The position numbers were made by a program, and so were the translations under genes. DNA of 45,141 nucleotides from Chitinophagaceae bacterium. Lineage in GTDB: Bacteria > Bacteroidota > Bacteroidia > Chitinophagales > Chitinophagaceae. Below, piece after piece: positions 17,051-44,871 of the stretch (the first letter of the stretch is position 1; each line of letters opens with the position of its first letter). The stretch lies in the NCBI GenBank assembly GCA_009885535.1, contig VFKL01000078.1:1-45141 (forward strand), written 5' to 3'. The notes below the pieces were generated by a model. The model did not search any database and was not told where the DNA came from. It saw only the letters and a program-made list of their open reading frames with translations.

Positions 17051-17054
17051 TTAT

Positions 17055-17164
17055 ACCATTTTGAATTACAATTTAGTCCACTATTTCATAGTATAATGCC
17101 GATTGGATAGCTGTTTGGGACAATTTCATTGGACCATTACAGAAATTACTTCATGATTAAAACC
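17055..17164 (+). repeat. Dispersed ~110-bp intergenic repeat, copy A
   Basis: Aligns without gaps to 33278-33387 over about 110 bp at roughly 79% identity by hand count. Within it 28 bp are identical (17100-17127, including GATTGGATAGCTGTTTGGGA). A small hairpin ACTAT-TTC-ATAGT sits at 17080-17092. It lies between the convergent dnaJ and VWA genes, so in this copy it cannot be an ordinary 5' leader. No ORF of significance. It could be a structured RNA, a degenerate mobile repeat or a protein-binding element. Confidence 0.8.
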
Positions 17165-33229: not shown

Positions 33230-33277
33230 ATGATTATTTTTTGAACGAAGTTAAACAATAATATCCTTGATTCTTAA

Positions 33278-33387
33278 ACCATGTTGAAATGCATTATAGT
33301 CAGCTATTTAATGGTATAGTGTCGATTGGATAGCTGTTTGGGACAATTTCGTCGGGCAATTGCAGATATCAGTTCGGTATTAAACGT
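33278..33387 (+). repeat. Dispersed ~110-bp intergenic repeat, copy B
   Basis: Second copy of the element at 17055-17164, same orientation on the plus strand. Core identical at 33323-33350. The hairpin of copy A is kept as GCTAT-TTA-ATGGT (33303-33315): two base changes turn Watson-Crick pairs into G-U pairs and do not break the stem. This copy lies between the divergent DEAD-box and CvfB-like genes and ends about 20 bp before the latter's ATG. Confidence 0.8.
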
Positions 33388-44608: not shown

Positions 44609-44871
44609 AATTAAAAAGTGGAAATTAAAAAATTAAAAAAACGAATGAACAACTTTCAACTTTCAACTTTCAACTTTTGACTTTTGACTTTATTATAATC
44701 ATTGATTACACTAACGCGCATCATATTTCAATATGCTCTCGACCAAAAAATCTACTCAAACACTGGTCTTTATTGCCTTTTTCCCTTTCATCACGATTCC
44801 AACTGCAAAATCCGGTTCAAAAGTTGAAATTAAAAAATCAAAATTGTTGATTTTATTGCTTTACTTTTTTT

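Follow-up and report, generated by a model that had tools for sequence, protein, structure and literature searches.

RUP of Streptococcus pneumoniae is a 107 bp element present in about 110 copies, it carries IS630-Spn1-like ends, inserts at TA and has been proposed to be moved by IS630-Spn1 (PMC2229807, PMC3049150). The IS630-family elements studied so far duplicate TA, ISY100 being the studied example (PMC2170065). In the wider IS630-Tc1-mariner group, the Fot transposons of the pogo group duplicate the three bases TAA (PMC7386202), and from Porphyromonas gingivalis a further non-autonomous miniature element, MITEPgRS, has been described (PMC4596501).

The DNA analysed here is a 45,141 nt stretch (the window; contig VFKL01000078.1) of the draft genome of an uncultured Chitinophagaceae bacterium (G000, 2.57 Mb in 210 contigs), in which we find two copies of a 103 bp dispersed element. 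We read it, with a probability of roughly 0.85, as a non-autonomous MITE which inserts at and duplicates TNA and for which an IS630-family transposase, acting in trans, is the most likely mover. Compared by description, RUP is the closest known kind: the two are alike in length (107 vs. 103 bp), copy number (about 110 vs. at least 62), mostly intergenic placement and IS630-like terminal repeats, but differ in target (TA in RUP, a 3 bp TNA duplication in the MITE), in phylum and in the modular, two-hairpin build of the MITE. Likeness to the IS630 family (NCBIfam NF033545) comes through an insertion sequence (IS) of a congener, genome G063, which matches the family model and has termini in common with the MITE, whilst the MITE itself differs from characterised IS630 elements in having no transposase and in its TNA rather than TA target. 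Fot elements share a 3 bp TAA duplication within the wider group, but are eukaryotic and autonomous and have no demonstrated relation to the MITE; MITEPgRS, again likened by description, is a non-autonomous miniature element from the same phylum. A search of the Chitinophagaceae literature, of partial coverage, found no such element, and our verdict is that the 103 bp MITE is ordinary in kind and new as a family.

Window copies and the wider family

A preliminary description of the window, made from the sequence alone, had reported a gapless repeat of about 79% identity with an identical 28 bp core. Pairwise alignment of 17055-17164 with 33278-33387 confirms this (79% identity over 111 bp, core CGATTGGATAGCTGTTTGGGACAATTTC), although the ends given there were slightly off and the element with its target duplications spans 17051-17159 and 33274-33382. 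Copy 1 (17054-17156; all features given for the two copies are on the forward strand) lies between direct TTA repeats at 17051-17053 and 17157-17159. Its left 26 bp terminal repeat (TACCATTTTGAATTACAATTTAGTCC, 17054-17079) is a subfamily C end which begins with TACC and is identical at 19 of 26 positions to the terminal inverted repeat (TIR) of the G063 IS630-family element, its right terminus has decayed from GGTA to ATGA, and its right hairpin unit (TAATGCCGAT...AATTACTTCATGAT, 17094-17157) is supported by the consensus fold and subfamily-level covariation. Copy 2 (33277-33379) lies between TTA repeats at 33274-33276 and 33380-33382; here the left terminus has decayed from TACC to AACC and the right GGTA is intact. 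Both copies are placed by an alignment of 76 copies. The family has at least four subfamilies (A to D, names coined in this analysis), and both window copies are nearest to C.

The element had also been called two-copy, which is wrong: at least 62 alignable copies are present in its own genome, a lower bound drawn from the fetched loci inspected. BLAST with the element returned 40 loci at E<1e-16 in this genome, and pattern searches gave 36 matches to the core (≤3 mismatches) and 58 to the right end, against 0 for the reversed control in each case. Related Chitinophagaceae MAGs also carry the element, with further copies in the nearest congeners (at least 14 in G017, about 9 in G011 and a few in others); most genomes of the genus have none, and presence is patchy. 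Across 84,980 species genomes, the exact 32-base core occurs in 19 stretches, all from MAGs and mostly titled Chitinophagaceae or Chitinophaga; the single MAG labelled Streptomyces griseus is taken to be a mislabel. Spread by phage or plasmid was rejected, as viral contigs (searched with the exact core), phages and plasmids gave no match.

A full copy has the form TNA-TACC(N95)GGTA-TNA, that is 103 bp plus the duplications, with ends TACCAATTTGAATTA... and TACCGATTGGATATC... The terminal 26 bp follow TACS...GWCC at both ends with few exceptions, and form imperfect inverted repeats (TACC...GGTA) in which 14-16 of 26 positions are identical between ends. Internally the element is made of a left unit of about 40 bp (TACC...GGTA) and a right unit of about 60 bp (TGCC...GGTA), each of which folds on itself in the consensus fold, with a central TAA common to both; lone left units flanked by TAA on both sides also occur (L111).

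Several variants accompany this basic form. In G011, copies in L101 and L103 carry an extra segment of ~20 bp (CCTGTGCCGAAACCTCGGTACG) within the right unit, and two copies of the same genome (L101 699-805 and L102 699-807) match the subfamily A consensus derived from G000 at every position, suggesting either recent activity or interspecies exchange. L079 (G000) and L094 (G017) are apparently the same insertion locus, their left units belonging to different subfamilies (D vs. B-like), which suggests conversion or replacement. Genome G009 holds a sister MITE family (loci L210-L225, at least 66 end matches) with TACC/GGTA ends, TWA flanks and the same two-unit build, its right units being tandemly repeated in some copies.

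By a crude ORF count over 62 copies, placement is mostly intergenic, 33 copies lying between tandem, 9 between divergent and 8 between convergent genes, with 10 undecided and 2 within an ORF. The nearest ORF end is a median of 21 bp away, and such placement is what tolerated insertions should show. The copies adjoin genes in general, and the link to protein-folding or RNA-handling loci drawn from the neighbours of the two window copies is not needed. The latter are two old, degraded subfamily C insertions for which no role in the host is evident. Another interspersed repeat, ~200 bp long, unrelated to the first and apparently also a MITE (ends AACCCGGATTTTGCAGTTG / CAACTGCAAAATCCGGGTT), was seen as well: a truncated copy lies near the window end (about 44700-44818, reverse strand), full copies lie in L012, L082, L085, L132, L143 and L146, and one copy interrupts a 103 bp MITE copy in L039 (788 onward).

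Target duplication and empty sites

Across the 76 copies the 3 bp flanks are direct, not inverted, repeats: TAA/TAA in 31, TTA/TTA in 20 and TCA/TCA in one. The middle base of the two flanks agrees in nearly all pairs (A/A 40, T/T 27, A/T 1, T/A 2; Fisher p=6e-16 over the 76 copies, a nominal value because copies related by descent are not independent). At the locus of copy 2, G017 has an empty site with a single TTG, GAATC-TTG-TACGTATC, where the window reads GATTC-TTA-[103 bp]-TTA-AACGTATC, and the element is also missing from the orthologous loci of G011, G005, G027 and G012. Copy 1 is likewise missing in the sister genome G017, which has 86 bp where the window has 195 bp. Gapless junctions with one TNA were found for L036 in three genomes (G017, G075 and G069), for L026, L033 and L022 in G017 and for L029 in G069; the L029 site in G017 retains TACCAA, apparently a scar left by a lost copy. 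The alternative of a 2 bp TA duplication, in which the outer TNA would belong to the target site, was considered, but the length of the empty sites rules it out. Matching flanks were recognised by eye in two species (e.g. L023/L087, L031/L093 and L009/L095), which implies that old and younger insertions coexist, and one copy sits within another (L039).

The TNA duplications, together with empty sites that hold a single TNA, identify the element as a MITE, so that among the three options first offered (an undescribed small RNA, a dispersed structured element or a decaying MITE) the last was the right one. The palindromes are imperfect, their mismatches are conserved and the copies are scattered mainly through intergenic DNA, features that might also fit mobilisation by a Y1 (RAYT) transposase, as in REP/REPIN-like or IS200/IS605-like palindromic elements. 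Y1 transposition, however, leaves no target duplication, whereas the TNA duplication here is highly significant and confirmed by empty sites, which makes a Y1-moved palindrome extremely improbable.

Folding of the element

A structured RNA, small or cis-regulatory, dispersed through the genome and with its fold kept by selection at each locus, has two points in its favour: the consensus folds score better than shuffles (z of -3.0, -6.3 and -3.2), and between subfamilies the two hairpins carry compensatory changes, for example at columns 67/107 (UA 58, CG 15). Within individual copies, however, later substitutions in the hairpin have produced G-U mismatches in 50 cases and A-C mismatches in 48 (a count which leaves out the subfamily-diagnostic column pair 66/110), and this equal frequency implies that, once inserted, copies are under no constraint to keep an RNA fold. 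Pair counts showed no compensatory change in the outer repeats when paired end-to-end, RNAalifold returned no consensus structure, and searches of Rfam found nothing at gathering level for the window, nor anything up to E=1 when a full consensus copy was used. By these four lines (Rfam, RNAalifold, pair counts and the G-U vs. A-C test) a structured RNA was rejected, with no locus-level RNA selection detected, and with it the proposed small RNA or structured element; the target duplications, the empty sites and the patchy presence in the genus also stand against it, and we consider it very unlikely.

The stem that had first suggested selection on RNA or DNA structure, ACTAT-TTC-ATAGT in copy 1 (17080-17092) with the wobble-paired GCTAT/ATGGT in copy 2, does exist in both window copies. 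The family as a whole does not conserve it: just 2 of the 76 copies form all five pairs and most form one to three, so the stem is a coincidence, and what the copies carry is transposon ends with random substitutions. For the MITE itself, we infer that the hairpins matter for transposition of the source elements and not as expressed RNA, which fits both the covariation between subfamilies and the decay of individual copies.

IS630-family ends and the likely mover

To look for a partner transposase, the positions common to both MITE ends were combined into a search pattern. In the congener G063 this pattern matched four ends, flanked by TTA or TAA, that belong to a longer repeat. This repeat is a multi-copy IS, about 1.2 kb long, in which the coding region is split into orfA and orfB. 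Both halves match the NCBIfam IS630 transposase model NF033545, each scoring under the cut-off set for the whole protein, as halves of a split protein should, and orfB matches Pfam DDE_3 (PF13358) above cut-off. At five insertions its other end is likewise flanked by TTA or TAA, and just inside this end lies an inverted repeat in the same layout as the MITE right unit. MITE left ends A and B are identical to the G063 TIR at 21 of 26 positions (0 of 100,000 shuffles as good) and the right end at 17 of 26 (1 of 100,000).

The window genome, as represented by its draft assembly, encodes one diverged relative of the G063 transposase (its halves are 61% and 50% identical in amino-acid sequence), with TIR TACGATAGTG...CAGACC and ends TACG...GACC, which agree with subfamily D at 18 of 26 positions (1 of 100,000 shuffles) and less well with the other subfamilies. 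L227 (G000 contig 137, about 928-2093) is the single-copy IS630-family element of this genome; its orfA and orfB lie in different frames, as in the G063 IS, and a full transposase possibly needs a frameshift. Single TIR-like matches elsewhere in G000 were discarded as ends of a full IS, being fragments or chance matches without a partner end.

These ends point to an IS630-type transposase as the most likely mover. The MITE, a pair of neighbouring hairpins with a central TAA in common, bounded by imperfect 26 bp repeats (TACS...GWCC), inserts at TNA, mostly TTA or TAA, with duplication of those three bases, and, having no transposase of its own, would be moved in trans, probably by cut-and-paste, by an IS630-family (Tc1/mariner-like DDE) enzyme reading the TACC/GGTA ends. 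Set against this are the confinement of MITE-IS similarity to the ends, the failure to find an IS with exactly the MITE's ends in the window draft genome, G017, G011 or G009, and the fact that characterised IS630 elements duplicate 2 bp, TA, and not 3 bp (PMC2170065). The 3 bp TNA duplication is the sole feature out of line with IS630, and it rests on the flank statistics together with the empty sites.

Some IS5 groups are known to make TNA or TWA duplications, as is PIF/Harbinger, and a mover from another DDE family, for instance an IS5-type enzyme from a TNA-targeting group, would suit the target. The three DDE_Tnp_1 (IS4/IS5-type) transposases of the window genome were, however, rejected as partners, having no matching ends, and the ends with TWA flanks are found instead on an IS630-family IS, so we regard an IS5-type mover as unlikely and retain an IS630-type transposase. 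More tentatively, and as a rather doubtful extension, a Bacteroidota branch of IS630 and its MITEs may use a 3 bp TNA target, with a transposase that reads a folded end and a subterminal hairpin that compensatory changes maintain in every source lineage, of the IS and of the MITE alike.

An abundant dispersed repeat of this lineage is explained in this way, and should not be mistaken for a regulatory RNA. It is also a clear example, backed by empty sites, of an IS630-type MITE that duplicates 3 bp, and can serve both the annotation of these MAGs and the question of how target length differs across the IS630-Tc1-mariner group.
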